From positions 25,684-89,683 of the IMG/VR virus record IMGVR_UViG_3300040751_002893: 64,000 bases of DNA. One strand, written 5' to 3'. This DNA comes from a virus. This document shows positions 6,933 to 63,329 of the stretch, in pieces; position 1 is the stretch's first letter; every line of letters begins with the position of its first letter. The notes beneath the pieces were generated by a model that was not told the origin of the DNA, searched no databases, and saw nothing but the letters and a program-made list of their open reading frames with translations. The translations under genes and the position numbers were made by a program.

Positions 6933-9779
6933 TTATTTTCCTTTGTTTAGCATCTCACGAATGAGAGGTTTGAGTTTGGTTGCAATTTGTTCTTCAAATT
7001 TTCTGTTATATCTTACATAACCTTTTTTCTTTTTTGGTTCTTCATTGATGTATTCTTTTATACTCTTCAGTGTTTCATTATTTAGATAATCTATAATTTT
7101 ATTATACCTTCTAAGTTTATTTCCGAGATATGATGCTATTATTTTTTTTGAACCTTTATAATCTTTATATTCACTGAGATTTCCTAAAAACTGTTCGAAG
7201 TTTTTCATGCTATGAATATCGAAAGGGTCTTCTGCGTCTTTTATATCTTTTGCTCCCTCTATATTCTCAAGTGCCTTATTATTTTCTTCTGCAGTGGCTG
7301 TTTTTTGTTTTTGATTGACCATTTTTAAAGCAGCTAAATCGGCTACAAAAGGCATACCATCATTTGGCAAAGGTCCACGGCCTGGCCGTATACGGCCTAT
7401 ATTTTTATAATGTTTTCTAGTTGCTTCTTGGATCTGTTGAAAAAATCTTTCTTTTGCTTCTTCCAAATATTCTCCATCTATTAATTTGTATTCTTCTCTA
7501 GAAAGATATCTAGTATCCTCTGGATAAGGTGGGTATTCTTCACCATCTTCTTGGTCATCAAATGTTTCATAACCTTTTTCTCCGAAATTATCTGTCGAAA
7601 TATTCAGAAGATGTGGGAGAACGCCTGGTTTTTTAAGGATTGCAATAATTTGTTCTTGATTATCAGAAAATTGTCTTTTGATAACATCTTGTATATTGTC
7701 CGGAATAACAACAGCCTCATTTAGTTTTACAATCTTTTTTTCTTCCAAAGCAATCAACAATTGTATATATAGCTTCATTTCTTCAGATGTCATTTTTGCT
7801 TTTTGTTGAAGGTCGTCTAGATCATATTTTTCAACAAGGTCCGTAGCAGCTTCTTTTTCTTCAGGTTCAAGCTCTTCCTGTTTTTCAATATTGCTTTGAA
7901 TATCTCTTTTGTTTTTGCCTTTTGATATCAAAACACCTAAGAAAGACAAAACTTTATCTTTTAAAATATCCGCATATGACTTTTCTTTCTCTACTTGAGG
8001 TTGAGGTTCACCTTGAGCAGCGCGTTCATTTGGTTGAACAACGACATCATCAAATTTTGACTTAACATCAAATATGCTTTGTATTTGTCCAGAGAATTCT
8101 TTGAGAGCTTTGATAGCATTTGATGCCGTGCTTCTTCCGCCTTGCCCTTGAGATAGTTCCAATACATCACGAAGAACAGACTTAACATCTTTTATTGCTG
8201 CTCCATATTGTTCCGAATACTTCTTCATATCTTGAGAGGTTTTCTTTCCGAATGGGTTAACGCTTGGGAAGAAATGAGAAATGCTCATCAATGCATTATA
8301 AGCATCTCCGACATTTTTTTCCATATCAAAAGCTTCTTTTTCTTCGGAACCTGCTGCTATAATATTTGATAGAGCACGAGAGGCATCGTTATATCCTTTC
8401 TCAATAGCATCCCACTTCTTTTCAATCTCGGAAGTGTCTTTTGCTTCTTGAACAAGATTCAACTTTGATATATCTTGAACAAGGTCTCGGATGTTCTCTT
8501 GTAGTTGAGCCAACATTTCCATGAACTTCTTCTTGAGAGAAGAACCAATGACCTTGCCTTTGTCGCTTGCTTCATCAAATCTTTGCAATACCTCTTTTGA
8601 CCTTTTGGCAAGCTTTATAAATGACTTGAGGTCAACTTGGATATTTCTCAATGCATTTGGGCTTTGTTGTTGTTCTTGAACTTGTTCCCCTTCTTCTGGT
8701 TTAGGTTGAGGTCTTCTTTGGGCGGCTTTTTCAAGTTCTTCTTTCTCTGTTATTTTAACCAATTGGTCTAATACATTTCTAACCAACTTCCCTTGGTCTC
8801 TAAGCAAAGCCTTTTCATAGAACTCTTCAATGAATTCTTCAGAAACTCTAATCAGGTCTTGGAGGGCTTCGGGGTCAACGTCAAACTTTTCGGGGTCTTC
8901 ATTCTCCCCTGCTTCATCAGGTGTTGTTTCTTGGTCACCTGATAGTTCTTTAGCGGTTTCGGGTTCCGGAGTTGTTTCCGTAGGAGTCTGTGTTGGCTCT
9001 TCCTTTGCTTCGGGTTCTGTTTGAGGTTGGGGGGCTTCTAAGTCTAAAGCGTGTCTTATTATTTTTAACGCAGCTAATTTTTTATTTACATCATTAACGA
9101 TACCAACTAGTACCTGTTTTGTTTTATCATCAAGTGCGCCAATCGATTGCTTCAAAAGAACATCTTGTTCTTGAGGAACCAAATTTACAAAACCTTGTGT
9201 TAGTGTAGTGAAAGTATCTTCATTAACATTTTTCGGAAGGTTTTTGTTCAACTCAACGGTGAAAAGATAAAGTGCTTGTTTTTCTCTTCCGTCGAACGTT
9301 TTCATTTCATCTTTATAGGCGTTAACAAATTGTGTATACTCTTTATCATCTTGGGAGTCTTGGTCTAGTTGCCCTTCATTGTCTTCTGGATCTGTATCTG
9401 ATATTTTTTTCATAGTATTATCGACTTTTTTTTCTAGTTCTTCACCTTGTGCTTTAGTCTCAGGGCTTTGTTGCGCTAAAAGTGCTTTTATATATCCATC
9501 AACAATCTGTTTGTACATTTCTTGTTGCCGTTCCGGAAGTTGATCCAAACTACTATAAAACTTTTTTTGTTCATTGTATTTTTTTAAAAATTTCTCAGGA
9601 CCATTTTTTAGGTCACGCTCTACACCCATAAGAGCGGATGCCAAAGTTGGTTTTCCAGCAGCTTCTGTTATTTCTTCAACAATAAGATTTGCAATCACAC
9701 TATTCGGTATTGTTCTATCTTCCATAAGCTTTTTGATAAGCGGGTGCTTTGATGTTTTTAATGCAAGTTTCTTGTTCAT
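6933..9779 (-). CDS. Large charged coiled-coil protein, probably virion-associated
   Basis: 948 residues dominated by E, K, Q, with long heptad-like helices and proline/glutamate linkers around 240-290 and 345-370. No enzyme motif recognised. Residues ~28-38 (IANLIVEEITE) resemble the short helix found at the N-terminus of many other proteins here. The C-terminus is basic (ATKLKPLIREMLNKGK). TAATG-coupled to the tiny gene upstream. Could be an internal head protein or tape-measure/scaffold component; no direct evidence for either. Confidence 0.7.
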   Translation of the reverse strand: MNKKLALKTSKHPLIKKLMEDRTIPNSVIANLIVEEITEAAGKPTLASALMGVERDLKNGPEKFLKKYNEQKKFYSSLDQLPERQQEMYKQIVDGYIKALLAQQSPETKAQGEELEKKVDNTMKKISDTDPEDNEGQLDQDSQDDKEYTQFVNAYKDEMKTFDGREKQALYLFTVELNKNLPKNVNEDTFTTLTQGFVNLVPQEQDVLLKQSIGALDDKTKQVLVGIVNDVNKKLAALKIIRHALDLEAPQPQTEPEAKEEPTQTPTETTPEPETAKELSGDQETTPDEAGENEDPEKFDVDPEALQDLIRVSEEFIEEFYEKALLRDQGKLVRNVLDQLVKITEKEELEKAAQRRPQPKPEEGEQVQEQQQSPNALRNIQVDLKSFIKLAKRSKEVLQRFDEASDKGKVIGSSLKKKFMEMLAQLQENIRDLVQDISKLNLVQEAKDTSEIEKKWDAIEKGYNDASRALSNIIAAGSEEKEAFDMEKNVGDAYNALMSISHFFPSVNPFGKKTSQDMKKYSEQYGAAIKDVKSVLRDVLELSQGQGGRSTASNAIKALKEFSGQIQSIFDVKSKFDDVVVQPNERAAQGEPQPQVEKEKSYADILKDKVLSFLGVLISKGKNKRDIQSNIEKQEELEPEEKEAATDLVEKYDLDDLQQKAKMTSEEMKLYIQLLIALEEKKIVKLNEAVVIPDNIQDVIKRQFSDNQEQIIAILKKPGVLPHLLNISTDNFGEKGYETFDDQEDGEEYPPYPEDTRYLSREEYKLIDGEYLEEAKERFFQQIQEATRKHYKNIGRIRPGRGPLPNDGMPFVADLAALKMVNQKQKTATAEENNKALENIEGAKDIKDAEDPFDIHSMKNFEQFLGNLSEYKDYKGSKKIIASYLGNKLRRYNKIIDYLNNETLKSIKEYINEEPKKKKGYVRYNRKFEEQIATKLKPLIREMLNKGK

Positions 9780-9958
9780 TATTTATTTCCCCTCACGGTA
9801 GCAATATATTGATTTATAATTGCTTGCTCTTCAGCAGAAAGTTTTTTCAATATATTGACGACTTCAGGCTCAAGTGTCTTTGAAGACATCTCTTCTTCAT
9901 TCATTCTATCAACTTCTTCTTTGATAATCTCTTTTATACGTGCTTCAGTGAGTTTCAT
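9779..9958 (-). CDS. Tiny MKLT-tag protein (59 aa)
   Basis: Begins MKLTEARIKEIIKEEVDRMN and ends in a second acidic helix (LKKLSAEEQAIINQY). GGAG lies 8 bases before the ATG. The whole protein is little more than the helical tag shared with at least eight other proteins of the window. Stop overlaps the ATG of the 948-residue protein as TAATG. Preceded by CTATTTATGA (9981-9990). Confidence 0.8.
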   Translation of the reverse strand: MKLTEARIKEIIKEEVDRMNEEEMSSKTLEPEVVNILKKLSAEEQAIINQYIATVRGNK

Positions 9959-9989
9959 TTATTGTCTCCAAACTTTTATATCATAAATA

Positions 9990-10018
9990 GCAAAATAGGT
10001 GGCTTTTTGCCACCTATT
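9990..10018 (-). terminator. Rho-independent terminator, possibly bidirectional
   Basis: Perfect 10-bp stem AATAGGTGGC / GCCACCTATT with a five-base loop, followed on the minus strand by TTTTG. It sits just after the stop at 10025 and separates two transcription units. Confidence 0.7.
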
Positions 10019-10024
10019 GATTTA

Positions 10025-12929: not shown

Positions 12930-13192
12930 TTTTTTATCTCCACGATTAAATTTGTGTCTCCCTTAATGACACGATGGTAAGTATAGCTTGGAATAAAATA
13001 TATCTTTCCTTCAACCATGATTTCAGGCAGCTTATTATCAAGTTGTAATTCCCAGCCTTTACCGGAAACTACTTTGACATAACGGTCTTCTCTATCCATA
13101 TGCCAAATGAGTTCATCGGAGACAACGTCTCTTTTGAACTCTCGCAAAAAAATTTTTTTTCCTATTTGTTTCTCAGTAAAAGGGAAGTCCAC
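12923..13192 (-). CDS. Small cupin-like protein (GTG start)
   Basis: 89 residues; GTG overlaps the upstream stop as TAGTG. Contains the cupin pattern W-H-M-D-R-E-D-R-Y-V-K-V-V-S-G and later YFIPSYTYHRV, i.e. one conserved His near each cupin motif. Paired with the aldolase, which suggests a sugar-phosphate side pathway. Function inferred from fold only. Confidence 0.6.
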   Translation of the reverse strand: MDFPFTEKQIGKKIFLREFKRDVVSDELIWHMDREDRYVKVVSGKGWELQLDNKLPEIMVEGKIYFIPSYTYHRVIKGDTNLIVEIKKC

Positions 13193-14547
13193 TACCAGAA
13201 CCTTCCGGGAACATTTGTCCCGAAATCTTTGTGTGCTCTACAAGCCCAGTAACCAGCCTTTGTTCTATCTTTCTTGTCTTTACAGTTGTGACGAGAAGCA
13301 AATGATTTACGAGCCTCAGCATTGTTCCAGTTGCCTTTGAGACCACCTTTTGAGTCTCCATAGGAAATCTTTTTGATTTTACCAGTTTTAGGATTGCGAA
13401 CATAAACTTTATATTTCTTTCCTCCGCCTGTGTTCTTAGTGGGTTTTCCAATTGGAGGGTCTTTCTTCTTTTTCTTTTTGCGTTTCTTTTCATCAATCAA
13501 TTCATCTTCTTCTTGTTCCATAATCATTGGAAAGTCAAGAGGAACCATTTGTTCTCCAAACATCCCAAACTCTCCGAGATCAGATTCAATAATTTCTTTT
13601 TCTTCTTCGGAGTGAAGCTTGTATTTACCTTCTCGGAACAGTTGTCTAACTTCCCTAAAAACACCGAAGAATTCGGAACTTCCCGGTCTAAAAACGTTTC
13701 TCTCAACTCCAACCCCATGTCGTAGGTGATATTGAAGAGACTTGGAAATATTTTTGTTTTCTTCCAAATTTGCTTTGTCAAGTTTTGAGTAATATTCGGG
13801 ATCTTCAACCAAGTGATCAAGAGTAATCTCTTGAGCGATCAACTCTTCTTGAGCATGTTCCATTTCTTCTTCAACACCCATATCAAACTGTTGTTGAATT
13901 TGTTCTGCGGATACTCCATGTTCTTCTGCGATTGCTTGAATCATCTCTTCAACAGAAACTTGTCCATACTTTGATGACTCGCCACCTGGAATAAACTCTT
14001 CATCCAGAGATTCGTTTTTCTTTGACTTATTACCCCAGTTTGCTGCACCTACTTTGCGACACTTACTAAGAGCACCAGAAGCATATGCTGATGGCCATAC
14101 TTTGTATCGTCTTTTAACTTTGTAATAACACTTATCTTTCTTGCCACTCGTCTTCTTGGCTTTCTTTTTGTGTGCTCTACGCTTTCCTTTCTTCTCATCA
14201 AGAACATTTTGGAGTTCTTCTAAAATGATTGTTCTGATTTCTTCTGTTGTTAATTCCATTGATTCGTTCCTCTTTTTCTTTGATCCTTTTTTACCCCATG
14301 ATTTACCACGACCACGCTCTTTACAGGCACCAGGGGTTGGTCGACATGCAGGATACTTTTTACGCTTCTCACCTTCAGAGCGTCCACAGGATTTGTAACC
14401 ACCTTTTCCATCTGGAGCATTACAGTCAACCCATCCACCTTTTTTCCCTTTGGCTCCTTTGCGTTTAAACCAATCACGGAGAGAAGACTCTTTGGAAGAT
14501 TCAGTACCAGCTTTTTTACGTTTTTTCTTTTCATCAAGTTCAGACAT
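13192..14547 (-). CDS. Basic multidomain virion-type protein with internal MELT helix
   Basis: 451 residues from ATG 14547 (GAGG upstream; the TTG extension is dropped). Domains: ~35-90 Cys-containing basic module (WVDCNAPDGKGGYKSCGRSE, then YPACRPTPGACKERGRGKSW); ~96-118 MELTTEEIRTIILEELQNVL, an internal copy of the shared helix; ~140-175 basic CYYKVKRRYKVWPSAYASGA; acidic middle; C-terminal KYKVYVRNPKTGKIKKISYG with SFASRHNCKDK. Similar modules occur in large marine phages as likely DNA-associated head proteins (memory, not checked). Confidence 0.7.
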   Translation of the reverse strand: MSELDEKKKRKKAGTESSKESSLRDWFKRKGAKGKKGGWVDCNAPDGKGGYKSCGRSEGEKRKKYPACRPTPGACKERGRGKSWGKKGSKKKRNESMELTTEEIRTIILEELQNVLDEKKGKRRAHKKKAKKTSGKKDKCYYKVKRRYKVWPSAYASGALSKCRKVGAANWGNKSKKNESLDEEFIPGGESSKYGQVSVEEMIQAIAEEHGVSAEQIQQQFDMGVEEEMEHAQEELIAQEITLDHLVEDPEYYSKLDKANLEENKNISKSLQYHLRHGVGVERNVFRPGSSEFFGVFREVRQLFREGKYKLHSEEEKEIIESDLGEFGMFGEQMVPLDFPMIMEQEEDELIDEKKRKKKKKKDPPIGKPTKNTGGGKKYKVYVRNPKTGKIKKISYGDSKGGLKGNWNNAEARKSFASRHNCKDKKDRTKAGYWACRAHKDFGTNVPGRFW

Positions 14548-14563
14548 TTCAAAATACCTCAAC

Positions 14564-15918: not shown

Positions 15919-16737
15919 TTACTTCCTTTTCAATTCAGAAAGAATGAGTTTGCGAATAACACCACGAAGTTTTGATTCGGTCATGCCTTCTTTTTTTGCT
16001 TTTTTACCTTTACGCAAAGCAGCAAAGTCTTTCGCATCAGGCTTACCAGTATGTGGCTCTTCAACATCTAAAGGATGTTCTTTTGCCTCTTTGACATCAT
16101 CACATTTACAAGGAGCACTCTCACACTTTGGGCACTCTTCGCCTTCGTTAAGCTCTTCCTCATACATATCTTTTTTGCTTCCACAAGAAGCCTCATTCAA
16201 TTGGCTAAGATCCATCTTGAATCCAAACTTATGAGAAACGTTTTCCATAAGTTCATTGTTTTTCCATTTTTTAGTAGACATAGTTTTAATTCTCCATTCG
16301 TTATAAATAGTAGGTTTTGACTCTTTTAAGCCATCTTCCCAATCACGAAAACACATATTTCCTTTTAGATACGCTTCTTTCTCTGATTGTCTTAGATCTT
16401 TATTTTTTTGAGCATATCCTTCACCATGATACCCACTATCATTTAGCATACCGTTTTCGTTTTGCGTATGATGCACCAACTCATGAGCAAGTGAACGGAG
16501 AATATCTTTTGTGTGACGGTTATCTGTATAGATTGTAACAGCCATTCCTTGTGGGTCATAATATGCTGTCTTACCAAGAGGCTTCGAAGCATTCTCTCCA
16601 TCTGAGACCAAATGCAAAGTTGGAGGTCTCTTGAAACCAAAACGCTCTTGAGCAAATCCACCAAGGTCATGGAAGAGTTCTTCTGTTTGAGACAAGTCCA
16701 TACCGCATTTATTTTTAATTTTAAAAAAGTTTTTCAT
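15919..16737 (-). CDS. Zinc metallopeptidase-like protein with C-terminal tag helix
   Basis: 272 residues. RSLAHELVHHTQN provides HExxH and SEKEAYLKGN the third ligand, as in SprT/IrrE-like phage peptidases. From ~180 on the protein is acidic and has a cysteine cluster (ECPKCESAPCKCDD). The last residues MTESKLRGVIRKLILSELKR copy the shared helix, here at the C-terminus. An internal MSTKKWKNNELMEN could be a second start. Candidate virion protease or head-internal protein. Confidence 0.78.
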   Translation of the reverse strand: MKNFFKIKNKCGMDLSQTEELFHDLGGFAQERFGFKRPPTLHLVSDGENASKPLGKTAYYDPQGMAVTIYTDNRHTKDILRSLAHELVHHTQNENGMLNDSGYHGEGYAQKNKDLRQSEKEAYLKGNMCFRDWEDGLKESKPTIYNEWRIKTMSTKKWKNNELMENVSHKFGFKMDLSQLNEASCGSKKDMYEEELNEGEECPKCESAPCKCDDVKEAKEHPLDVEEPHTGKPDAKDFAALRKGKKAKKEGMTESKLRGVIRKLILSELKRK

Positions 16738-17353: not shown

Positions 17354-17764
17354 TCAGGTCTCCATTAAATAAGCGTCTTCGTCATCGATTTCATATGCTT
17401 CTTCACCGTTCATAACCATCATTGGTTCAGCATCCGGCAACATGCTTTGGATTTCTTCTTCAGAGTCTTCTGAATCTTCACAATCGTCTGGATCTTCCAT
17501 GTCAAGGCCCATTTCATACTCAAGATAATGCTTTACCTTTCCGAGATACTCAGAAGCAATTGTGATCTTACTTTGAACCCACGCTTCAAGCTGTGTTTCG
17601 TCTTCTAGGGCATCATGAAGCATCATAGCATACTTAGCCATCTTATAAAGTTGAGATTTGGCCATTCCACCTTCTTCATCGACATGATCCATATGCTTTT
17701 TATCATCAAGCATCATCATTTCTTCATTTATTATTTGTTTAAGTTTATTTTCGTTTAATTTCAT
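17354..17764 (-). CDS. MKLN-tag acidic protein
   Basis: 136 residues from ATG 17764 (the preceding TTG codon is not needed). N-terminus MKLNENKLKQIINEEMMML is the shared helix. Then DEEGGMAKSQLYKMAKYAMM and VQSKITIASEYLGKVKHYLE, a helical module I associate with large marine phages, and a strongly acidic C-terminus. Probably packaged or head-associated. Confidence 0.75.
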   Translation of the reverse strand: MKLNENKLKQIINEEMMMLDDKKHMDHVDEEGGMAKSQLYKMAKYAMMLHDALEDETQLEAWVQSKITIASEYLGKVKHYLEYEMGLDMEDPDDCEDSEDSEEEIQSMLPDAEPMMVMNGEEAYEIDDEDAYLMET

Positions 17765-19369: not shown

Positions 19370-20467
19370 TTATTTTCGGAACATTCCGAGGTCTACTATT
19401 ACTATATCACCAGTTTGAGGGCGAATCATGACATTTTTGTCATGCATATCATATGCACCAAGACCAGTAATGTCTTTTAGGTCACTTATTGCCTTTTTGA
19501 TGCTTTCTATTTCTTTGAAAACTTTCCATTGCTCTTCAAACTCTGGTCCTTTATCTTCCCAGCCACTCCATCTGTCACCAGAGCCATCCTTAAGTCCAAC
19601 TGGGGAGTTTTTTCTAAACCACTCTATCCAATATGCAATTATATTCTCATGATATTGTGCAAAAAGCATTTTATTTTCATGTTGAAACAAAGCGTCTAAC
19701 TGTTCGATGATAAAGGTTAGCATCCATGGAGCACTTTGAAACATTTCTTTAGTTTTACCTGTTCTCCAGTTATTTATGTATGTTAATGCTGTATCAGATA
19801 ATGGAAGGATGTTTAAAAGCTGCAATGCTTTTTCGCTATATTCTTTATTGGAGACATATGAATCTAAATAAGTGAAAAATTTCTTCATAGGAGTCATTAA
19901 AAAGTCTAATTCTGGCCTCATATAGTTGTAAAACTGCTGTATAATAGAGTCTTGTGACTCTTTATCTTTAAACATCATATAGTATCTGTTTTCACGACTC
20001 CTGAAAGTTGAATCATAATCCGCAGCAACCTCTTTTTCATCCTCGGATGGTCTTAGTGCTGTGTTTAGACCGCCAAAAAGCATACTAATCATTTCATGTT
20101 GTAGTCCTTGCTCTACGCCTAGAATTTCCATTATGATTAATGTAATATCTGGGTGTGAATTTTCATCTATATAATAAACTTCAGGAAAATGTTTTTTGAT
20201 ATTTGGAGATTTACTTCTGGCATCGTTAACTATTCTATAGTTTTCTGCCTCTCTTTGAGTATTGTAATCAGAAGAATCTAAAATCTTAATAGCAACAGGG
20301 CCGTATTCGTCAGATATACCCTCTACTACTAAGCCATAACGCCCCTCTCCTAATTTTTTTCCGATGTCAATATTATATTTCGATGACAATATAGGAGATG
20401 CTTGCTGTTCTTTTGTGCTTTGTTGAGATACTGACTCTGATAGTAGTTTTTTAATCTTTATTTTCAT
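19370..20467 (-). CDS. Protein-kinase-like protein, truncated after the DLG motif
   Basis: 365 residues. Glycine loop KKLGEGRYGLVVEG (~37-50), VAIKILD with the ATP-binding Lys, catalytic-loop-like D340-M-H-D-K-N345 and metal-binding D359-L-G. The protein ends six residues after DLG, so activation loop and later C-lobe helices are missing, while ~270 residues separate the Lys from the catalytic loop. N-terminus MKIKIKKLLSESVS resembles other tagged proteins. Either an unusual kinase or a pseudokinase packaged in the virion. Confidence 0.75.
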   Translation of the reverse strand: MKIKIKKLLSESVSQQSTKEQQASPILSSKYNIDIGKKLGEGRYGLVVEGISDEYGPVAIKILDSSDYNTQREAENYRIVNDARSKSPNIKKHFPEVYYIDENSHPDITLIIMEILGVEQGLQHEMISMLFGGLNTALRPSEDEKEVAADYDSTFRSRENRYYMMFKDKESQDSIIQQFYNYMRPELDFLMTPMKKFFTYLDSYVSNKEYSEKALQLLNILPLSDTALTYINNWRTGKTKEMFQSAPWMLTFIIEQLDALFQHENKMLFAQYHENIIAYWIEWFRKNSPVGLKDGSGDRWSGWEDKGPEFEEQWKVFKEIESIKKAISDLKDITGLGAYDMHDKNVMIRPQTGDIVIVDLGMFRK

Positions 20468-20471: not shown

Positions 20472-20870
20472 TTATCCTTTTTGTTGATCTTGACTGCGAA
20501 AATATGGACTTGGTTTGAAGTTTTGAAGTCCTTGGCGTGTATATCTTATACGAACATAGCGTTTATGTCCTTCAGGAGAGCGTTCATGAGGTATTTGACC
20601 GCTTCCTGCACCCATCATAGCACCAGAAGTTGAATATAATTCATCAATTTTTTTGGAATGCTCTGTATCTTTGCACATTTCTTCTGCTTCTTTCTTTGAT
20701 AGACCTTCTGGTCGCTCATCTGCTGGCTTATCCATCATAGCACACATGTATTTTCTTTGCTTTTCGCTGGAAACTTCTTCCAGATCTTCTCTAGGAGCAC
20801 CAGCAACTGCACCAGCACCCATAGCAGACATTTCATCTAACTTTTTTTTCTTTATAATTCTTATTTTCAC
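20472..20870 (-). CDS. Small basic/acidic phage protein (GTG start)
   Basis: 132 residues from GTG 20870, overlapping the upstream stop as GTGA. Starts KIRIIKKKKLDEMSAMGAGA; middle SSEKQRKYMCAMMDKPADER with PEGLSKKEAEEMC. Repeated M-G-A-G/S glycine-methionine loops. Conserved look in large phages but no known role. Confidence 0.65.
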   Translation of the reverse strand: MKIRIIKKKKLDEMSAMGAGAVAGAPREDLEEVSSEKQRKYMCAMMDKPADERPEGLSKKEAEEMCKDTEHSKKIDELYSTSGAMMGAGSGQIPHERSPEGHKRYVRIRYTRQGLQNFKPSPYFRSQDQQKG

Positions 20871-21436
20871 TTTAATTTTACCCCAGACCACAGTCTAAAA
20901 CTGACTTGCTCAAAAGAAGTGTTGAAAATTCTGTATGGTATCTCCCATTTCAGAGGCATTTCTTCTTTTGGTTTATGAAACCCACCTTCAAATACTGTTA
21001 TCTCTTGCTGTTTTATCCAATTTATCACTTTTTTGTTGGATATTTCGGCCGATGTTATGACTTGACCGTTCTTACCATAGAGAGTTTGAGACACCAATCC
21101 CTCTTCTTCGTTCAAGTGGAGAACAGTTCTTACATAATAATGGTTATTCTTGACAGAACACATCAACGGATCGTCATTGTAGTCACAATTATCTTTCTTA
21201 TATTTGATTGTGTCTTTGTTGTATACCAATGCATTACCAGAATCACCAATCATTTCCCAACCATATTGAGATTTGACTTTAGCAAATTTAACATGACGGG
21301 AAACATTGGCGAAAGGAAGCTCAGAGGAGGTCGAATTAACAACTCTTGTACCATTAGAGTATGTTTCTAAAGGAGATACATAAACGATGACCTCTTGAGC
21401 TATAACAAGGGAGAATAATGAAAGTAGTAGTAACAT
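20867..21436 (-). CDS. Secreted protein with Sec signal peptide
   Basis: 189 residues. MLLLLSLFSLVIAQ is a short signal peptide with a likely cleavage after A-Q. Mature part is beta-rich with one CDYND..CSV cysteine pair and ends LWSGVKLK. Sits directly after the VWA lipoprotein gene, so both probably act in the envelope. Not recognised. Confidence 0.7.
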   Translation of the reverse strand: MLLLLSLFSLVIAQEVIVYVSPLETYSNGTRVVNSTSSELPFANVSRHVKFAKVKSQYGWEMIGDSGNALVYNKDTIKYKKDNCDYNDDPLMCSVKNNHYYVRTVLHLNEEEGLVSQTLYGKNGQVITSAEISNKKVINWIKQQEITVFEGGFHKPKEEMPLKWEIPYRIFNTSFEQVSFRLWSGVKLK

Positions 21437-22454: not shown

Positions 22455-22952
22455 CTAGTAATTAATTAAAAAATTAAAAAATCTTTCAAATTGTTCTTCA
22501 GTGCCGTATGTTAATAGAAATTTTTCCAAAGTCATCTCAGGTAAGACTTCACCACCAGCCCAAAATTCTAAAGGCTTTGAATTTGCTTTTTTTCTAATCC
22601 ATGGGGAATATTTTGTGCAAGACATCCACATCTCAATTAAACCATCGACTTGTTGCGGTTTTATAGCAGACCAGTCAGGGGCTTCTATCGTCATTAAATA
22701 AGCATTTGATACTTTAATCCAGCCATCAGGTGTCCAATCTAAACCTACACTTTCTAAATAATCCCCATGCGTATATGCAACATTTATTCTTTTTTGGTAT
22801 TCGGTCGCAAATGATTCTAAATCTATAAAGTTTCCTTCCAGATCTATAAAGCCGAGAGAGTGAACAGCGCAAGAATCTCTATCAACTTCTTTAAGGGCTT
22901 TGCGAAGTTCTTCTTTTATGATTTGTTTTATTTGTTTGTTCGTTAATTTCAT
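22455..22952 (-). CDS. MKLT-tag protein
   Basis: 165 residues. MKLTNKQIKQIIKEELRKAL is the shared N-terminal helix; the remainder (HSLGFIDLEGNFIDLESFAT; SAIKPQQVDGLIEMWMSCTK) is a globular domain I do not recognise. A cluster of three tag-bearing genes follows here (22.4-24.1 kb). Confidence 0.75.
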   Translation of the reverse strand: MKLTNKQIKQIIKEELRKALKEVDRDSCAVHSLGFIDLEGNFIDLESFATEYQKRINVAYTHGDYLESVGLDWTPDGWIKVSNAYLMTIEAPDWSAIKPQQVDGLIEMWMSCTKYSPWIRKKANSKPLEFWAGGEVLPEMTLEKFLLTYGTEEQFERFFNFLINY

Positions 22953-22974: not shown

Positions 22975-23346
22975 TTAAAAAGGAGGTTCTTCGTCGATCT
23001 CTTTTTGGTCATATCCTTGGTATTCAAACTTAATATCTTCGGCTATATTTATCAACCGCTCCAATCCGGACATTCCACGAGACTCTTGGTATTCATATAT
23101 AGCATCCGCCAACATGTCAACAAGTTGTTTTCTATGTGAGTCTTTGTGGTCTCCGAGGATTGACCTTTCATTATGTAATATAATAGCATTTTTTTTCATG
23201 GTGCTCATTATGGTTTGATAATTTGCAGTCATTGCAGCAGACAAGATATCATCAATAAAATCAAGCATAGGGTTACGAACTTCGTTAAGGACTTTGCGAA
23301 GTTCTTCGTTGATAATTTGTCTTAGTAAATTTTTGCTTATATTCAT
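22975..23346 (-). CDS. MNIS-tag protein
   Basis: 123 residues from ATG 23346 (ATGA overlap with the upstream stop). MNISKNLLRQIINEELRKVL is a divergent shared helix. The rest is a helical domain with HNERSILGDHKDSHRKQLVD. Function unknown. Confidence 0.72.
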   Translation of the reverse strand: MNISKNLLRQIINEELRKVLNEVRNPMLDFIDDILSAAMTANYQTIMSTMKKNAIILHNERSILGDHKDSHRKQLVDMLADAIYEYQESRGMSGLERLINIAEDIKFEYQGYDQKEIDEEPPF

Positions 23347-23681: not shown

Positions 23682-24095
23682 TTATTCTAAAGCTTTGCCG
23701 CTTTTAATGTTCGCAATGTATTCTTCTGTTTTTTCTATAGCATCTTGTATTTGCTTGTCATACATCAAACCTCTTTCTGAGTCTGGCATGTCTTCTTTTT
23801 GTTTACGAAGCTGTTGTAGGGTTTTTTCTGCATCTGCAAGATTCATTTTTCCTTTCTGTGAAGCTTCAGGGCGACCTGGGCTCATTCGTTCATCAGGAGG
23901 AAGCATGCCTCTACTTTTAAACTCATCTTCAATATCGCGCAACGTTCCAAATGATCTTGGGTCATCATCATAAGCATAGATATCATGTTGCTGCTTAAGT
24001 TCATCATCAGATAAGCCTTTAAGATTCATTTCTTTTAGAACAACTTGAAGCTCTTCCTTGATAAGTTGCTTAAGTGTTTGGTTTGTTAATTTCAT
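23682..24095 (-). CDS. MKLT-tag protein
   Basis: 137 residues. MKLTNQTLKQLIKEELQVVL is an intact shared helix; DDDPRSFGTLRDIEDEFKSR and a charged coiled coil (LADAEKTLQQLRKQKEDM) follow. Last gene of the left arm before a gene-free GC-rich gap. Confidence 0.75.
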   Translation of the reverse strand: MKLTNQTLKQLIKEELQVVLKEMNLKGLSDDELKQQHDIYAYDDDPRSFGTLRDIEDEFKSRGMLPPDERMSPGRPEASQKGKMNLADAEKTLQQLRKQKEDMPDSERGLMYDKQIQDAIEKTEEYIANIKSGKALE

Positions 24096-41095: not shown

Positions 41096-41103
41096 ATTTC
41101 CTC

Positions 41104-41833: not shown

Positions 41834-41852
41834 TTTACATCTCCTGTTGTCT

Positions 41853-42741: not shown

Positions 42742-42768
42742 GCTTACCTCCGTTGTTGTTTACCTATA

Positions 42769-43125: not shown

Positions 43126-43306
43126 CTAACACCTCCAAGGAATAAAAAGGAACCCACAGTGTCTTGTGTCCTACTTGTACTTTGTATTGCCCAAACTGAT
43201 TGATTGGGGCTAGAACTATACCTATGTATCCATGAACATCACCATGGATGGACATACCTTTGTTGTATCTGAATAGATCGCCTTTCTTAAAATCACTTCT
43301 TTGCAT
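43112..43306 (-). CDS. KKGDLF small protein (64 aa)
   Basis: MQRSDFKKGDLFRYNKGMSI, GYIGIVLAPINQFGQYKVQV, end FYSLEVLDEER. Confidence 0.72.
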   Translation of the reverse strand: MQRSDFKKGDLFRYNKGMSIHGDVHGYIGIVLAPINQFGQYKVQVGHKTLWVPFYSLEVLDEER

Positions 43307-44036: not shown

Positions 44037-44084
44037 TTTGTCTCCAATGAAATGTTGTTGGTTGTTCGTTGTGAACATATTATT

Positions 44085-44128
44085 ATCTTATTGTGTTGTG
44101 TCTATTTTGTCAAGGACATTTTTTGACC
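44085..44128 (-). promoter_or_regulatory. GGACA-cassette promoter (abutting) for the 42794-44036 unit
   Basis: GGACATTTTTTGACC (44114-44128), TTGACA, 17 bp, TAAGAT. Confidence 0.8.
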
Positions 44129-49764: not shown

Positions 49765-51339
49765 TCAGGAACTTACAATAGCGTGGCTCGTAGTGATAAT
49801 AGTTGAGGATACAGACACCGCATTTTGCAGTGCACACTTTGTAACCTTAACCGGATCAATAACTCCTGAGTCTAGGAGATTAACTATATCGCCAGTTAAA
49901 AAGTTCATACCATGATTGAATGTTGTGGTATCACGAACCTGCTGAACAACAAGGTCAGGTGATAAGCCAGCGTTCTTTGCCATTTGACGAATAGGCTCTT
50001 CAACTGCTTCGATAACAATCTTAGCGCCCAAGGCTTGTTCATCGTTGTCTGCTTGAATCTGGATATCAGATACAGATTTTAGCAATGAAACACCGCCACC
50101 GGGAACGATACCTTCTTCTTGTGCTGAACGAACTGCTTCCAAAGCATCATCGATACGATGCTTCTTCTCAATCATTTCAACTTCAGTTGCAGCACCGACC
50201 TTTATGACGGCCACTCCGGATGCCAATCTAGTGATTCGCTCTTGATGACGCTCACAGACTCGCAAATCTTCTTCTTCAGATATGAGGGCCTTAACCGCCT
50301 CAATACGCTTTTCAATCTCTTCCTCATCGCCTTTGCCTCCTACGATAGTCGTCCATGCTTTTGATACTGTTATTTTCTTTGCTTGACCGAAGTGAGTTAA
50401 CTTGACATCTCGGAGGGTCAAACTATTCTCTCTTGTTACAAAAGTCGCACCAACAGAAGCGCAAAGGTCTTTGAGGATGTTACGTCTTTCTTCTCCGTAT
50501 CTCGGAGCCTTGACAGCAGCAACTTTCATTGTGCCACGGACAGCATTTGCAATTACAGCAGCAAGTGCTTGACCTTCCATTTCACCAGCAACAATAATGA
50601 GAGGACGAGACTCTCTCGCAGCTAGTTCTAGAGTAGGTAAAATTTGCTCTATAGTCTCAACTTTTTCATCTGTAACGAGCAGTAGAGGACTATCGTAGTC
50701 TACGGTGCCGGCACGTTCGTTCGTGATAAATGTAGGCGAAATATAGCCACTATCGAAACGAAATCCTTCGATGAGATCAAGTGATGTGTTAACAGAGCGA
50801 GCCTCTTCAACAAGGACAGTTCCATCTTTACCTGCTGCATCGATAGCCTTGGAGATTAATGTTCCAATAGACTTGTCGTTGTTAGCAGAGATAGTTGCAA
50901 TATGATAGATATCTTGTTCTGTCTGAATAGGTCTCGCATGCTCTGCAAGTTTCTCACAGATAACTTCACATGCCTTATCCATACCACGTTTAAGTTCAAT
51001 AGGAGAAACACCAGAGGTCAGATACTTCTGAGCCTTGTTGATAATTCCTCTCGTTAAGACGGTGGTGGTTGTGGTTCCATCACCAGCCTTGTTTGCGGAT
51101 TGCTCTGCCGCTTGCTTAAGAATCTGAACACCAACGTTTTCAAACGGGTCATCAAGTTCCACAAACTTTGCGATGGTTACACCATCTTTTGTGATCACAG
51201 GAATGTTTTGCTTCTTATCATAAAGAATTACATTGCGTCCCTTTGGGCCAAGGGTTGTTCCCACGTTATCCGCAAGAACATTCATACCCTTTAAGATCTT
51301 CTCGTTGAGAGAAGAACCGTTGTTATATTGTTTTGACAT
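49765..51339 (-). CDS. groEL: Chaperonin GroEL (phage-encoded)
   Basis: 524 residues. TTLGPKGRNVILYD, TKDGVTIAKFVELDDPFENV, AGDGTTTTTVLTRGI (ATP site Asp), equatorial GIVPGGGVSLLKS, and a Gly-rich hinge. The C-terminal G-G-M tail is absent. Folds proteins in an ATP-driven ring; phage homologues are thought to fold capsid proteins. No groES seen here, so host GroES may be borrowed or it works alone. Confidence 0.95.
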   Translation of the reverse strand: MSKQYNNGSSLNEKILKGMNVLADNVGTTLGPKGRNVILYDKKQNIPVITKDGVTIAKFVELDDPFENVGVQILKQAAEQSANKAGDGTTTTTVLTRGIINKAQKYLTSGVSPIELKRGMDKACEVICEKLAEHARPIQTEQDIYHIATISANNDKSIGTLISKAIDAAGKDGTVLVEEARSVNTSLDLIEGFRFDSGYISPTFITNERAGTVDYDSPLLLVTDEKVETIEQILPTLELAARESRPLIIVAGEMEGQALAAVIANAVRGTMKVAAVKAPRYGEERRNILKDLCASVGATFVTRENSLTLRDVKLTHFGQAKKITVSKAWTTIVGGKGDEEEIEKRIEAVKALISEEEDLRVCERHQERITRLASGVAVIKVGAATEVEMIEKKHRIDDALEAVRSAQEEGIVPGGGVSLLKSVSDIQIQADNDEQALGAKIVIEAVEEPIRQMAKNAGLSPDLVVQQVRDTTTFNHGMNFLTGDIVNLLDSGVIDPVKVTKCALQNAVSVSSTIITTSHAIVSS

Positions 51340-53814: not shown

Positions 53815-54522
53815 CTAAATAATAATATCTGCTAATCCATACTCAACTGCTTCTTCTGCTGTCAAATATACATTAACTCTCTCATTAAGTAGTGATTTAA
53901 GCTTTCTTTTTGACAAATTTGTGCAAGAAGCCATAGCAGTAATATATTGATCTTGAAGTTTTTGAATAGCATCAAGTTCAGTTGTCATGTTGAATAGAGG
54001 ACCGAATGCACCAGCAGAAACTTGATGTAGCATAACGCGACAGTTTTTAGAAATTTTGCGCTTTCCTTTCGTACCGGCAGCAAGTATAAGGGTGCCTGCT
54101 GACATAACCTTTCCGAGCCCAACTGTTTCAATTACGCATGATTTTTTACACATTTCCATGATATCATAGATAGCAAACATTTCATCTGCTGAACCACCAT
54201 AAGTTGACACATACATTGTGATTGGATCATAAGGCATCTCGCCTTTTTGAAGGTTTTTCTTTGGTGCCTTGAGGTGCGCAAGAGCCAAGAAGCCTGAGAT
54301 AATCTCTCCTGCTTTCTCTTCATTTACTTCACCTTGCAGAAGCATTGTTCTGCTTTCCATCTCTTCTGCCATACCAGACAACAATGCTTGAACATCAATC
54401 GCTGGCTGGGCTTGTTCGGAGGTTTCTTCTGTAACTTCCTGTTCGGTTTCTTCAACCTTTGCTTTCTTTTTTGTCTTTTTCTCTTTTGCGAACCTTACGA
54501 TTCTTTCTATAATGTGTTTCAT
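53815..54522 (-). CDS. ClpP-like protease, probable prohead/maturation protease
   Basis: 235 residues from ATG 54522 (SD AGGAGG). E/T-rich linker to ~55, then ClpP fold: MYVSTYGGSADEMFAIYDIM, GKVMSAGTLILAAGTKGKR (Ser), NCRVMLHQVSAGAF (His), and RVNVYLTAEEAVEYGLAD, where the usual catalytic Asp aligns with Asn. Ser-His-Asn occurs in some active ClpP1 proteins. The next gene upstream is an acidic scaffold-like protein, the normal substrate context of a head protease. Confidence 0.87.
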   Translation of the reverse strand: MKHIIERIVRFAKEKKTKKKAKVEETEQEVTEETSEQAQPAIDVQALLSGMAEEMESRTMLLQGEVNEEKAGEIISGFLALAHLKAPKKNLQKGEMPYDPITMYVSTYGGSADEMFAIYDIMEMCKKSCVIETVGLGKVMSAGTLILAAGTKGKRKISKNCRVMLHQVSAGAFGPLFNMTTELDAIQKLQDQYITAMASCTNLSKRKLKSLLNERVNVYLTAEEAVEYGLADIII

Positions 54523-54538
54523 ATATAACCTCCTAAGT

Positions 54539-54572
54539 AAAAAAAAGACCGAGGATTTCTGCCCCCAGTCTT
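54539..54572 (-). terminator. Attenuator-like hairpin in the clpP leader
   Basis: Minus strand AAGACTGGGG, loop, CCTCGGTCTT, then eight T. It starts within a few bases of the expected transcription start and precedes the SD, so it could cut off most transcripts early. Confidence 0.65.
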
Positions 54573-54575
54573 TAT

Positions 54576-54604
54576 AATATAACACAATTTTATGTAACTG
54601 TCAA
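54576..54604 (-). promoter_or_regulatory. Sigma-70 promoter of clpP
   Basis: Minus strand TTGACA, 17 bp, TATATT. Confidence 0.82.
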
Positions 54605-54611: not shown

Positions 54612-55130
54612 TTATCGTTTGCGACCAAGAGCCTCGTTCATACGCTTGTGAGCACGTTTTGCTTCAACGATACGCTTTGCAACACGACGAGCAACTTCAT
54701 TGACGATTTGCTCTTGCATTTCTTCTTCCTCTTCAGGTGTTGGCTCAACATCAACATCTTCAAGTTCAGCGTCCATATCCATGTCCATGTCAGGCTCTTC
54801 TTCATCACCCATATCCATTTCAGGCTCTTCTTCTGCGCCCATAGCACCAGAAAGAGCAGATACAAGATCTTGAAGTGCTTCTAAACCTTCTTCCGCTTTA
54901 GCAATCTTTTCGTCTTCAATCTCAACATCGGCATCGTCCATTTCTGGAGCTTCTGGAGCTTCATCTTCGACTTCAACGTCAAGCTCAGCTTCCATTTCAG
55001 CAGGCTCTTCCATTGCTTCTTCTTCTGTAAGTGCTTCTTCGTCCATACCATAGGACTCGTTAATATTTTTGATACCAGCAAGGCCCATGAAGCGACGGAC
55101 TTGTGATTCAGATAAAAGTTTCTTTTTCAT
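54612..55130 (-). CDS. Acidic scaffold/prohead-core-like protein
   Basis: 172 residues. MKKKLLSESQVRRFMGLAGI start (a phrase I recall in head-region proteins of large marine phages), a long D/E/M/P/A-rich centre with repeated EEEPEMDMG-type units, and a basic C-terminal helix (VARRVAKRIVEAKRAHKRMN). The layout matches phage scaffold proteins that bind capsid by a basic end and are degraded by the head protease, here ClpP-like. Confidence 0.75.
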   Translation of the reverse strand: MKKKLLSESQVRRFMGLAGIKNINESYGMDEEALTEEEAMEEPAEMEAELDVEVEDEAPEAPEMDDADVEIEDEKIAKAEEGLEALQDLVSALSGAMGAEEEPEMDMGDEEEPDMDMDMDAELEDVDVEPTPEEEEEMQEQIVNEVARRVAKRIVEAKRAHKRMNEALGRKR

Positions 55131-55204: not shown

Positions 55205-55492
55205 TTATACTTGAAACTCAAATACATATGTGCCATCATCTTGCATCTCTGGGGCATAGTGATCAATGTTGGCTTTTTCATCGTATTCTTCATAAGTTTT
55301 TTCTGATACATTCTTCACATATATCAAAGCAAGATTACGATTTTGGGCGGCGGTGGAACTTACCTCTGATTCTATCTCAGACATACTCATACCTGATCCG
55401 TCAATATACTCTTTATTGCTAGATTCTTGCTCTGTCATTCTGCTTAGTTCTTCACGAATAAGTTTTTTCAAGCGTTCTGTTGTTAATTTCAT
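55205..55492 (-). CDS. MKLT-tag protein
   Basis: 95 residues. MKLTTERLKKLIREELSRMT is the shared helix; the remainder is acidic with a C-terminal strand pair (ALIYVKNVSEKTYEEYD; GTYVFEFQV). Preceded by CTATTTATAG (55512-55521) and GGAG. Confidence 0.75.
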   Translation of the reverse strand: MKLTTERLKKLIREELSRMTEQESSNKEYIDGSGMSMSEIESEVSSTAAQNRNLALIYVKNVSEKTYEEYDEKANIDHYAPEMQDDGTYVFEFQV

Positions 55493-57652: not shown

Positions 57653-57904
57653 GTCATTTTCTTCATCTTTTCTATAAAAAAGATCTACACCCCAATGAAA
57701 ACATGTAGATCCATCAAAATATTTGACGAGATAATATTGCTCAAATGACTTGCTCTCTTCTACTATAAATCCTGCTTTGAGTTTGTTGTCGTATTCTATT
57801 ATCTCGTCTCCTGTATTATGGTCGTAACCAATGTTTCTTATAACTTTGGCAAAGACCAGCATTGTTGGATACCCATCGGCTCCAACCTTTTCCATCTCAT
57901 CCAT
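57632..57904 (-). CDS. Small protein, LKAGFIVEE type
   Basis: 90 residues from ATG 57904 (TAATG with dnaE; SD GGAGG). VGADGYPTMLVFAKVIRNIG, KLKAGFIVEESKSFEQYYLV, FDGSTCFHWGVDLFY. Strand pattern like the KGDL barrels. Unknown. Confidence 0.65.
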   Translation of the reverse strand: MDEMEKVGADGYPTMLVFAKVIRNIGYDHNTGDEIIEYDNKLKAGFIVEESKSFEQYYLVKYFDGSTCFHWGVDLFYRKDEENDLTYLKK

Positions 57905-60900
57905 TATTCCTCCTTGTTTGTTGTCATACGTTTCCATGTTCTATCAACATGACCTCTCGTTGAGAATCCCCAACCATCAGAATATTGCGGCTTGATAATG
58001 TAAACTTCGTTCAAGAGAATCTCGTCTCGGATTGTGTCTTTGTTCACACCCCAATACCGAAGCTTGGTAAGTTTACTGTTTGAATCGATCAGATCAATAA
58101 CAGCAAACCACTTGCCATTCTTTGACTTGCGAAGATTGACATTACGAGGTATACCCCAACATGCACCAAGAGCAGCATCAAACTCAGAGATAGGTGGAAC
58201 GCAGAACTTAGCTAGAGACTCTTGGACTTCTTCCGGAGCAACAAGATTCATAGGAAAAATACCCGTCAATTCCGTAAGAAATTCAACTCTATCGTCTTTT
58301 GAGAAGTCACCGGCCTCCTTATATGCCTCAATATTTTCAGCGAGTTTTTTGAGGTTTTTTGGACGATCTTGGCAACAAGCAGCCCAGAAGTGTTGAGCAC
58401 CTGTGAACCTATCATCAATGAGGGAATCCAAAGCACCACCGCGACAAAGAGCATCCAAAGACTTCTTGTTGAGTTTACGATAGATAACGTTCTCATTGAA
58501 TAGCAATTCCTCAACAGTCTCAAAAGGACGGTTCGCAACAATCTCTTCGATAGCCTTGTCTCCAAGACCTTTGATAGTTGTGAGCGGCGCAACTAACTCG
58601 TGGTCAGAAGCAGCCTCCCAAGAGTCGCCAGAAAGATTGATATCAATAGGACGGATAGAGTAACCATGAGACTTAGCAATATTAATTGCTTGCTCTTTCT
58701 TAGTGTCGGGCTCACGATCCAAGAAACTACACATCCACTCAGTAGGAAAATAGTTATAAAGGTAAGCACACTGATAAGATATGATGGAGTATGATACAGC
58801 ATGAGACTTATTGAAGCCGTAACCAGAGAAATATTCAAAAGTGGCCCATAGCTTTTCAGCGTCCTCTTTTCTGATCTCCTTCTTCTCGCACCCAGCAAGA
58901 AACTTCTCCTTGATCGCCTCTTTAACCTCATGTCCTTTACCCGTACCCTTCTTAGTAAGTACTTTGCGGAGGAGGTTAGCTTCATCCATAGAGATATTTT
59001 CTCCAAGTTTATAAGCCAACATAGCAATCTGTTCTTGGAAAATCAAGAAGCCGTAGGTCTCTTTGGTAACTTCTTCTACAAGAGGGTGAAGATACTCAAT
59101 CGATAGAGTGTCATTAATAGCAGCAACATACTGCTTATCAACACCAGCCGATAAAGGCCCAGGGCGATAGATTGACGTAATAGCTGCGATATCAATAATG
59201 GACTTCGGCTGGGCACGGACAGCAAATGACTGTGCGCCTTTCTCTGTGAACTGAAAGATACCAGCCCATTTACCTTCGTGAAAAATGTTTTCATAAATAT
59301 CCTGATTGTCAAAATCAATAACGTCCGGATGGAGGTTCTGATCATAAAATGCTTTGATCTGAGCAAACGTTGGTTGTTCAGTTCCATTGTTAACTAGAAT
59401 ACGTCTAATGCAATCTTCAATCATTCTGAGAGTTGATAGTCCAAGAATATCGAACTTGATAAAACCAAGAGGCTCAAGCTGACGAACGTTCTGCCCCTCA
59501 GACCATGGAGTTTGTCTAACGCCTTTAGACGAGATCAAAGGCATATATTTATTTAATTGTTCTCCAACCACCACACCGCCAGCATGACGAGAGCATGAAC
59601 GATAAGAACCATAAAGAGCCATGACGTGATCTGCTACATGTGGATACTTGTTAAGAAACCCACGAAGACTGTCGGAGAACTCAATGGTCTCTTCAAAGGT
59701 TGGAGTATATACACCAGCCTTAATACCATGCTTTCGCTTGGCCGCAGGTGTGGCTTCTTTCATCATAACGTTTGTAACAGCATTCACTTCATTGAATGGA
59801 ATCTCGTAGAACTTTGAGATATCTTTGAGGAGAGAACGAAGCTGAAGTGTATTCCAGTTTGAGATAGGAACAACAACATCATCGCCCCACTCTTCGATAA
59901 GCATATCTTTGAGAACCATGGGATCAGATACATCATAGTCGATGTCCGGATAGTCTGTTGCATCAGAACGCAAGAAACGAGAAAACAGAAGTCCATACTC
60001 AATAGGATCAACCTGTGTGATTCCGAGAGCATAGGCTACCAATGAACCAGCAGCAGAACCACGACCTGGACCAGCCAACTGAACTTCATTTGTTTTGTCT
60101 GATATGGCTTTCATTGTTAAGAAATACTTTGAGAAACCACGATCAGCAATAACGCTGAGTTCATGATTGATTCTGGAAATATATTCTGGGCTGTTCTTTC
60201 TCAAGTGACTTAGGCCACCAAGTGATAGATCACGTAGGTAGTCATCTTCATCACGACCCGCAGGTACAACAAAATCAGGAAGACGAACAGTAGTGTCTGG
60301 AACAAACTGTTCAATGCGTTCGAAAGCAATGGTGTGACTTTCCTCAATGCTTCTAAATACGAGTTCTTCATCATAATCATATTCCTCCGAGTATTTCTTG
60401 AAGTCTTCCCACATTTGTTCTCCATTCTTTGGATAGAGTTCATAATCCATATCTTGAACAGAACCGGGAAGAGTCATGTCCAACCATTCAGGCGCACCAC
60501 GTCCCAACCAACCGAGCCGCTTGTATAGCTCACGGTCTTTCCAAGCAGTTGGTGTAGGATAGTGAGAGTCAGCAGTTGAAACCAACTTGATACCAAACTC
60601 TTTGTGCATCTGGATGATGTATTTATTTAGAGCATGCTGCTCAGGTACAGCATTCCACTGTAACTCACCATACCAGCGATCACCAAAGATATCAACCATA
60701 GTACGGGTTGTTTCGCGCATGCAGTCAAGAACAGCCTCTTCACCGTTCTCAATGTTTTCCCAATAGCACCCAGCGTAAACACCACCAAGACAAGCAGACA
60801 TAGCAATAACACCATCGCTGTATTTGCGAAGGAGACTATAATCCATGCGAGGCTTGCGATAAAAGTATTTCTCACTGTAACTTTCCGATACTAATTTAAA

Positions 60901-61329
60901 TATATTGTTAAGACCGTTTTGGTTCATTGCGAGAAGAACTAAATGACGAGAACGGTTAATGGAACGACCTTTTGACTTGGTCGCACCTTCTTCCTCTACG
61001 TTTACACCTGATTGCTTATCAGATAGTTCTTTGGCTTTCTTCTTATCTGCCTTGTGTTCTTCATACTGTTTTCTCCAGTCTTCGACATCTTCAATGAAGT
61101 ATGCTTCCACACCAAAGATTGGTTTGAAGTCTTTACCTTCTTTTGCCATCTTGTTTGCGTGCAGAATCTGATATGCGAAACCATTCATGTTTCCATGATC
61201 GGTTAATGCTAGAGCCTGTCCTCCATTCTCGTAGCAAAAGTTCATGTGGTCTTGCGGGTAGCCGAAGCCATCAAAGGGTGAGCCAACACCCGAATGAGCG
61301 TGAAGCCCAACAAATTTTATATTATTCAT
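57904..61329 (-). CDS. dnaE: DNA polymerase III alpha subunit (DnaE-type)
   Basis: 1141 residues, full length. PHP domain FVGLHAHSGVGSPFDGF with ALTDHGNMNG; polymerase palm GPGRGSAAGSLVAYALGITQ, DYPDIDYDVSD and FDILGLSTLRMI (three catalytic Asp); HAGGVVVGE; fingers with GFNKSHAVSYS; HhH region IKGLGDKAIEEIVANRPF. No C-terminal tau-binding extension seen. The phage's replicative polymerase, a bacterial C-family enzyme rather than T4 family B. Own perfect promoter. Confidence 0.95.
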   Translation of the reverse strand: MNNIKFVGLHAHSGVGSPFDGFGYPQDHMNFCYENGGQALALTDHGNMNGFAYQILHANKMAKEGKDFKPIFGVEAYFIEDVEDWRKQYEEHKADKKKAKELSDKQSGVNVEEEGATKSKGRSINRSRHLVLLAMNQNGLNNIFKLVSESYSEKYFYRKPRMDYSLLRKYSDGVIAMSACLGGVYAGCYWENIENGEEAVLDCMRETTRTMVDIFGDRWYGELQWNAVPEQHALNKYIIQMHKEFGIKLVSTADSHYPTPTAWKDRELYKRLGWLGRGAPEWLDMTLPGSVQDMDYELYPKNGEQMWEDFKKYSEEYDYDEELVFRSIEESHTIAFERIEQFVPDTTVRLPDFVVPAGRDEDDYLRDLSLGGLSHLRKNSPEYISRINHELSVIADRGFSKYFLTMKAISDKTNEVQLAGPGRGSAAGSLVAYALGITQVDPIEYGLLFSRFLRSDATDYPDIDYDVSDPMVLKDMLIEEWGDDVVVPISNWNTLQLRSLLKDISKFYEIPFNEVNAVTNVMMKEATPAAKRKHGIKAGVYTPTFEETIEFSDSLRGFLNKYPHVADHVMALYGSYRSCSRHAGGVVVGEQLNKYMPLISSKGVRQTPWSEGQNVRQLEPLGFIKFDILGLSTLRMIEDCIRRILVNNGTEQPTFAQIKAFYDQNLHPDVIDFDNQDIYENIFHEGKWAGIFQFTEKGAQSFAVRAQPKSIIDIAAITSIYRPGPLSAGVDKQYVAAINDTLSIEYLHPLVEEVTKETYGFLIFQEQIAMLAYKLGENISMDEANLLRKVLTKKGTGKGHEVKEAIKEKFLAGCEKKEIRKEDAEKLWATFEYFSGYGFNKSHAVSYSIISYQCAYLYNYFPTEWMCSFLDREPDTKKEQAINIAKSHGYSIRPIDINLSGDSWEAASDHELVAPLTTIKGLGDKAIEEIVANRPFETVEELLFNENVIYRKLNKKSLDALCRGGALDSLIDDRFTGAQHFWAACCQDRPKNLKKLAENIEAYKEAGDFSKDDRVEFLTELTGIFPMNLVAPEEVQESLAKFCVPPISEFDAALGACWGIPRNVNLRKSKNGKWFAVIDLIDSNSKLTKLRYWGVNKDTIRDEILLNEVYIIKPQYSDGWGFSTRGHVDRTWKRMTTNKEE

Positions 61330-62714: not shown

Positions 62715-62775
62715 AAAAAAAAAGGCATCCTAACGAGAGGAGCCCTTATCACTGATTCTTCAGTAGGATGCCTTT
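62715..62775 (-). terminator. Rho-independent terminator
   Basis: Minus strand perfect 12-bp stem AAAGGCATCCTA / TAGGATGCCTTT, 31-nt loop, then nine A/T of a T tract. Ends the virion-type unit 62805 and beyond. Confidence 0.9.
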
Positions 62776-62779
62776 AAAG

Positions 62780-62803
62780 CTATTCTACGTGGCCTGTTCC
62801 AAA
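62780..62803 (-). pseudogene. Remnant of a gene end (FGTGHVE stop)
   Basis: Between the stop at 62805 and the terminator the minus strand reads F-G-T-G-H-V-E-stop, matching the end V-I-G-T-G-H-I-E-stop of 63371-63997. It suggests that gene 62805-63329 was inserted before a duplicated gene end. Confidence 0.5.
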
Positions 62804-62804
62804 G

Positions 62805-63329
62805 TTATAAATAATCTGGACCTAGATTATCAGGTGAATAAACTTTATGTGGTCCTTGAAATGATTCACCAGAATGCTTTCTATGAAAGTCAGTCTGTAC
62901 AGAAGCAGTATTGTCAATGTCACCTACTGGTTCTCCTGTTATAGCGCTTAATTCATCTAATTTTTTATTGAGTTTTGCTACTAAAGGTCTCCAAACATCC
63001 GAGGTGTTGTTCCAAAGAGCCGCTCTTGCTTTCAATTGTAAATCAACAATTTCATTTTTCAACTGCATTATATTTTTCGGATCATCAGGCATCACTTCTA
63101 AATTCTCTTGTGAACCCAAACCTTTTGCGAGTTCTCTAGCCATTTTAGGATCTTCTTTCTCTAGATCTTCAATTTTCTTAAGAAACATTGCATCAATCCC
63201 AGCATCGTCACGGCGAATTTTTTTTAGAAATTCAGGATCAGGGTGTCCACCAGGATATCTCATTTCTTTGAGAACGCTGTCTAGTTCTTGTTTGATAATT
63301 CTTCTTATTGCTTCATTTGTTAATTTCAT
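62805..63329 (-). CDS. MKLT-tag protein
   Basis: 174 residues from ATG 63329 (SD GGAGAG; the TTG extension is dropped). MKLTNEAIRRIIKQELDSVL shared helix, then charged helices (FLKKIEDLEKEDPKMARELA) and a C-terminal TDFHRKHSGESFQGPHKVY. Preceded by CAATAAATAG (63350-63359). Probably virion-associated. Confidence 0.75.
   Translation of the reverse strand: MKLTNEAIRRIIKQELDSVLKEMRYPGGHPDPEFLKKIRRDDAGIDAMFLKKIEDLEKEDPKMARELAKGLGSQENLEVMPDDPKNIMQLKNEIVDLQLKARAALWNNTSDVWRPLVAKLNKKLDELSAITGEPVGDIDNTASVQTDFHRKHSGESFQGPHKVYSPDNLGPDYL

Follow-up and report, generated by a model that had tools for sequence, protein, structure and literature searches.

A short amphipathic helix found at the N-terminus of many otherwise unrelated proteins of uncultured marine T4-like phages is, with a probability of about 0.8 as judged from sequence, an N-terminal capsid-targeting sequence (CTS) of the T4-type head-assembly pathway. 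This helix, here called the tag, is probably a packaging address label, because it is common to unrelated proteins and is usually followed by a site of the head-protease type. The best reading of the sequences is that the tag is new in sequence and that its cargo is much wider than that of the T4 CTS; the motif was not found mentioned in the open-access papers searched. The stretch of DNA analysed (the window, 64,000 nucleotides) spans positions 25684-89683 of a fragmentary viral contig of 89.7 kb.

The tag has the logo MK[IL]TKxQLKQIIKEEL over roughly 16 residues; from residue 23 onward hardly any information is left. The 48-base degenerate DNA pattern used to search for it leaves K5, Q10 and everything past residue 16 free and partly constrains residues T4 and L8. 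Conservation within the tag is thus partly imposed, because the pattern fixes several of its residues. At least 120 stretches in viral contigs match, and the pattern occurs 1-13 times per record in 22 large records, in which the same pattern read backwards gave 0 matches. Across 257 Gb of bacterial and archaeal genomes, only six stretches carry it, so that the tag is close to restricted to viral contigs; most of the six come from marine MAG contigs of possibly viral origin, and the match in Paenibacillus is possibly a product of chance. A search of the GenBank phage collection with the tag returned a single weak match (LR756508, E=4) and the consensus none; cultured relatives were located via TerL.

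Copies in the window were identified with a score matrix of 22 columns, derived from 198 pattern-selected tags of other phages and applied to all six frames. It picked out exactly eight places, seven protein N-termini and one internal position, at 29.7-49.3 bits; all other places in the window scored at most 8 bits, and 20 shufflings of the complete six-frame window reached no more than 4.9 bits. The matrix thereby confirms the N-terminal copies listed in a preliminary description of this DNA, all of which lie on the minus strand. The tag MKLTEARIKEIIKEEVDRMNEE (9893..9958) starts a 59-aa protein (9779-9958), and MKLNENKLKQIINEEMMMLDDK (17699..17764) a 136-aa protein (17354-17764) whose body is homologous to those of tagged proteins in other phages (L122, L028, L061 and L103). 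Three further copies are MKLTNKQIKQIIKEELRKALKE (22887..22952) on a 165-aa protein (22455-22952), MNISKNLLRQIINEELRKVLNE (23281..23346) on a 123-aa protein (22975-23346) and MKLTNQTLKQLIKEELQVVLKE (24030..24095) on a 137-aa protein (23682-24095). The remaining two are MKLTTERLKKLIREELSRMTEQ (55427..55492), which begins a 95-aa protein (55205-55492), and MKLTNEAIRRIIKQELDSVLKE (63264..63329), which begins one of 174 aa (62805-63329). A ribosome site of the GGAG/GAAG type is clear at five of these seven starts. Pfam and PHROG scans of the seven proteins gave no significant match, and AlphaFold models of two tagged window proteins (pLDDT 52-54) suggest, at low confidence, that the tag forms a helix from residue 5 to residue 20 or 22.

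The internal copy, also described previously, was recovered by the matrix at 14259. It reads MELTTEEIRTIILEELQNVLDE (14194..14259, minus strand), lies inside a 456-aa basic protein (ORF 13192-14562) and begins with ATG, preceded by AGAGGA, so that a second in-frame start at this position is possible. Two other proposed copies did not find support: the supposed relative of the tag at 52925 scored -9 to -28 bits, and the supposed C-terminal copy in 15919-16737 scored -36 bits. The matrix is strict and derives from pattern-selected tags (it also rejects tags of the Flavobacterium phage immuto that are two residues shorter and had been accepted by eye), so these two are unproven rather than excluded.

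Tagged proteins have a short N-terminal segment in common and little else. The 197 bodies, all from proteins of at least 60 residues, form 182 clusters, of which 173 are singletons, and among 108 bodies scanned against Pfam only five domains appeared, once each, including an AAA/polynucleotide-kinase-like domain. Together with the scores of the matrix against shuffled sequence, this bears out the earlier observation of a shared helix on many unrelated proteins. Since many tagged genes are small and sit side by side in one orientation, an arrangement expected of tandem duplicates, the tag could on that account be the conserved N-terminal part of one fast-diverging family, without a role in targeting. 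This is very improbable: 173 of the 197 bodies are singletons, the bodies include the AAA/polynucleotide-kinase-like and other distinct domains, and one type of body carries the tag in one phage (L082) and another leader in the window. Two homologous proteins (L107:6560-7246 and L178:17494-18180) carry two tag-like helices in tandem.

The T4 CTS consists of the first 10 residues of IPIII, and the prohead protease gp21 of T4 cleaves after L/I-X-E (PMC9026906). Among 207 tagged proteins, 124 have L/I/M-x-E at residues 17-32, compared with 55 in shuffles (maximum 75 of 500); a gp21 motif after the tag is therefore a property of the population and not of every protein. The E of this downstream motif is at residue 21 or 22 in 94 of the 207. 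A hydrophobic residue at position 17, 19 or 20 is accompanied by E exactly two positions later (odds ratios 66.6, 8.4 and 16.8, respectively), the linked pairs 17/19, 19/21 and 20/22 reaching p values down to 2.6e-16; by contrast, depletion is seen for the off-register pairs 19/22 and 20/21 (odds ratios 0.29 and 0.33). We give this test the greatest weight, since L and E merely scattered along a helix would not yield such a result. The predicted cut site of the L-x-E type after the helix, which had been part of the original proposal, thus holds across the population as a motif linked to the tag as a unit.

Other features near the motif are also compatible with a helix that is never removed by proteolysis and instead docks the protein onto some other phage complex of assembly or infection, for instance as a non-cleaved scaffold or portal anchor or as a helix binding a membrane or a host factor. 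The core of the tag is strongly amphipathic and constant in length, and L/I/M-x-E is absent from residues 17-32 in about 40% of the tagged proteins, nearly all of which keep an I-x-E inside the tag, where the search pattern imposed it. Furthermore, A, G or S follows the E in 37% of cases against a background of 18% (p=3e-6), and G and N are enriched at this position as well as A, a pattern that a helix cap could equally produce. In the tagged proteins of the window, L/M-x-E is followed by V, M, Q, E or K, none of them small. We nevertheless consider docking without cleavage unlikely, because a plain amphipathic helix predicts neither the shift of L-x-E between registers as a unit nor the depletion of off-register pairs. 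In addition, the capsid proteins of tag-bearing phages keep the same L/I-x-E, mostly before A or S, at the position where T4 gp23 is cleaved, so that the specificity of gp21 is probably conserved in these phages.

The distribution of head genes likewise argues for a capsid-targeting role of the tag. The gp21 prohead protease (PF03420) is encoded in 15 of the 22 large tag-bearing records and a clear gp23 capsid protein in 14, with one additional weak match. In one record (G013), genes for TerL and a T4-type portal stand at the extreme end, and the sequence stops before gp21 would lie. No match to gp21, gp23 or the T4 portal was obtained in G007, G015, G018, G020 and the record of the window; the first four, in which neither TerL nor the baseplate protein described below was found, are probably fragments. 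A non-exhaustive search for other head types found none in a tag-bearing record. On 14 gp21-bearing contigs with 53 tags in total, 30 tags are no more than 15 kb from gp21, where 13.6 are expected (circular-shift p=0.003), and those near gp21 are nearly all upstream of it on the same strand. The tags thus cluster upstream of the portal-gp21-scaffold-capsid module. In G019 a tagged gene of 108 aa immediately precedes gp21, and in G016 a distance of no more than about 1 kb separates it from one tagged and one tag-like gene; in T4, genes 67 and 68 likewise sit in the gp21 neighbourhood. Tags also occur far from gp21, in G001, G002, G005 and G012.

The contig of the window has no TerL match, and its link to this type of head is provided by a relative. 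A baseplate protein at the left end of the window has relatives in T4-type phages; one of these phages (G027), whose baseplate protein is 39% identical, has a contiguous stretch that encodes TerL, a T4-type portal and gp21. On the strength of this relative, the phage of the window very likely has the same T4-type head. A near-identical contig (G032) is about 30 kb longer and contains two more tagged genes, and gave no matches to TerL, portal or gp21; an ORF in it (L213:14738-15688) resembles, by eye, cytochrome c peroxidase. The window itself encodes a GroEL (49765-51339) and a bacterial-type DNA polymerase III alpha subunit (57904-61329). Nine promoter-like elements, near-identical to one another and made up of GG[AT]CAAAAAATGTCCTTGAC and then a TATAAT-like box, are located in 30850-44122 on the minus strand, and the reading frames that enter them end in 'KKCP'. 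This region is presumably early, and the tagged genes lie outside it, none being present between 24095 and 55427.

The preliminary description had assigned the cutting of the tag to a ClpP-like protein of the window (53815..54585, minus strand), and this part of the proposal was not borne out. The protein matches PHROG families called head maturation protease (phrog_94), and its gene lies near a tagged gene and near a gene for an acidic protein described below. Seven tag-bearing records encode both gp21 and a homologue of this protein, the two being separated by about 40 kb or more (18 kb versus 68.5 kb in G016); in seven other gp21-bearing records tested, no homologue was detected. Moreover, the Ser and His motifs are present, but the residue that aligns by eye with the catalytic Asp of ClpP is Asn (LNERVNVYLTAEEA). 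The ClpP-like protein was therefore rejected as the head protease, a role in which it is highly unlikely. Given the distance of its homologues from gp21 and their apparent absence from the seven further records, gp21 is the better candidate for the protease that fits cleavage of the tag. The wider idea of T4-like capsid targeting loses only the protease originally named and is favoured by the co-occurrence with gp21, the linkage to head genes, the unrelated bodies and the linked L-x-E.

In the T4 system, the internal proteins IPI, IPII and IPIII and the propeptide of Alt also combine a short N-terminal segment with unrelated mature parts and a following L/I-x-E, and the tag-bearing phages share gp21, gp23 and a gp20-type portal with T4. 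The tag differs in its core of 16 residues, with 21-22 residues to L-x-E, in its number of copies (up to 13 per record, compared with three IPs and Alt in T4) and in the far greater diversity of its cargo. By eye, against the T4 record, it shows no similarity to IPI (MKTFKEFTSTTTPVSTITE) or Alt (MELITELFDE) beyond a general plan of a charged start, hydrophobic residues and [LI]-x-E. In phages phiKZ and SPN3US, inner-head (ejection) proteins carry N-terminal propeptides that are cut by a diverged gp21 homologue after a short motif ending in E and are thought to target the proteins to the prohead (PMC5694885). The tag, whose cutting is predicted, resembles these propeptides in its position and in the motif ending in E. 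They are, however, mostly longer than 100 residues and largely specific to one protein, whereas the tag is short and repeated on many.

During assembly of the shell, the tag would bind the prohead core or scaffold, and gp21 would then cut after L/I-x-E, or at the I-x-E within the tag, thereby freeing the body. The freed body would remain in the head with the DNA and be ejected into the next host, as the IPs and Alt of T4 are ejected from the head into the host. New cargo genes would be recruited by fusing any body to the tag; if the short tag alone suffices, any body can be recruited, which would explain the near-total dissimilarity among bodies. Should this hold, one short motif would predict the virion-carried proteins of uncultured marine T4-like phages, proteins that reach the host at the first moment of infection. 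The predicted set of cargo would then be likely to include proteins for counter-defence and takeover that have no recognisable homologues.

Several proteins carry leaders other than the tag. The C-terminus of gp22-like scaffolds reads R[MWFL]xxLAGI, and an acidic 172-aa protein of the window (54612..55130, minus strand) carries near its N-terminus MKKKLLSESQVRRFMGLAGI, which is like the scaffold C-terminal peptide R[MW]xxLAGI and possibly constitutes a second packaging signal. The minus-strand protein at 20472..20891 has a body (SSEKQRKYMCAM...) similar by eye to that of the tagged L082 protein (HSEKQRNYMCAM...) and a different leader ending in KKKLDE, which suggests that leaders are exchangeable. 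A kinase-like protein (19370..20467, minus strand) with the leader MKIKIKKLLSES and a weak Pfam Pkinase match is a candidate cargo that has no canonical tag. In phage immuto, a cultured relative (Flavobacterium sp. LMO8) that encodes gp21, scaffold and gp23, proteins start with MKKSELVKLIKEEL and MKKSQLREIIRKEL, shortened tags (MKKSQLRQIIKEAL) and a repeated leader (FDLKKFLVENKLT) occur, and a LAGI-like peptide lies near the starts of two proteins. We hypothesize that the LAGI-like peptides, the immuto leader and the shortened tags are further packaging signals. More tentatively, at a little under even odds, marine and aquatic T4-like phages could share a modular code for cargo loading. Its elements would be the helix tag, other leaders such as FDLKKFLVENKLTxNSKLL of immuto, and a peptide that mimics the C-terminal LAGI end of the scaffold, each with a gp21-type site where it ends or close by. 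If so, sequence alone could reveal which proteins uncultured phages inject.

Close to its N-terminus, a protein that immuto encodes just upstream of gp21 (L191:23579-24661) contains HFIAEAR, which has the I-x-E/A form of the sites cleaved by T4 gp21.
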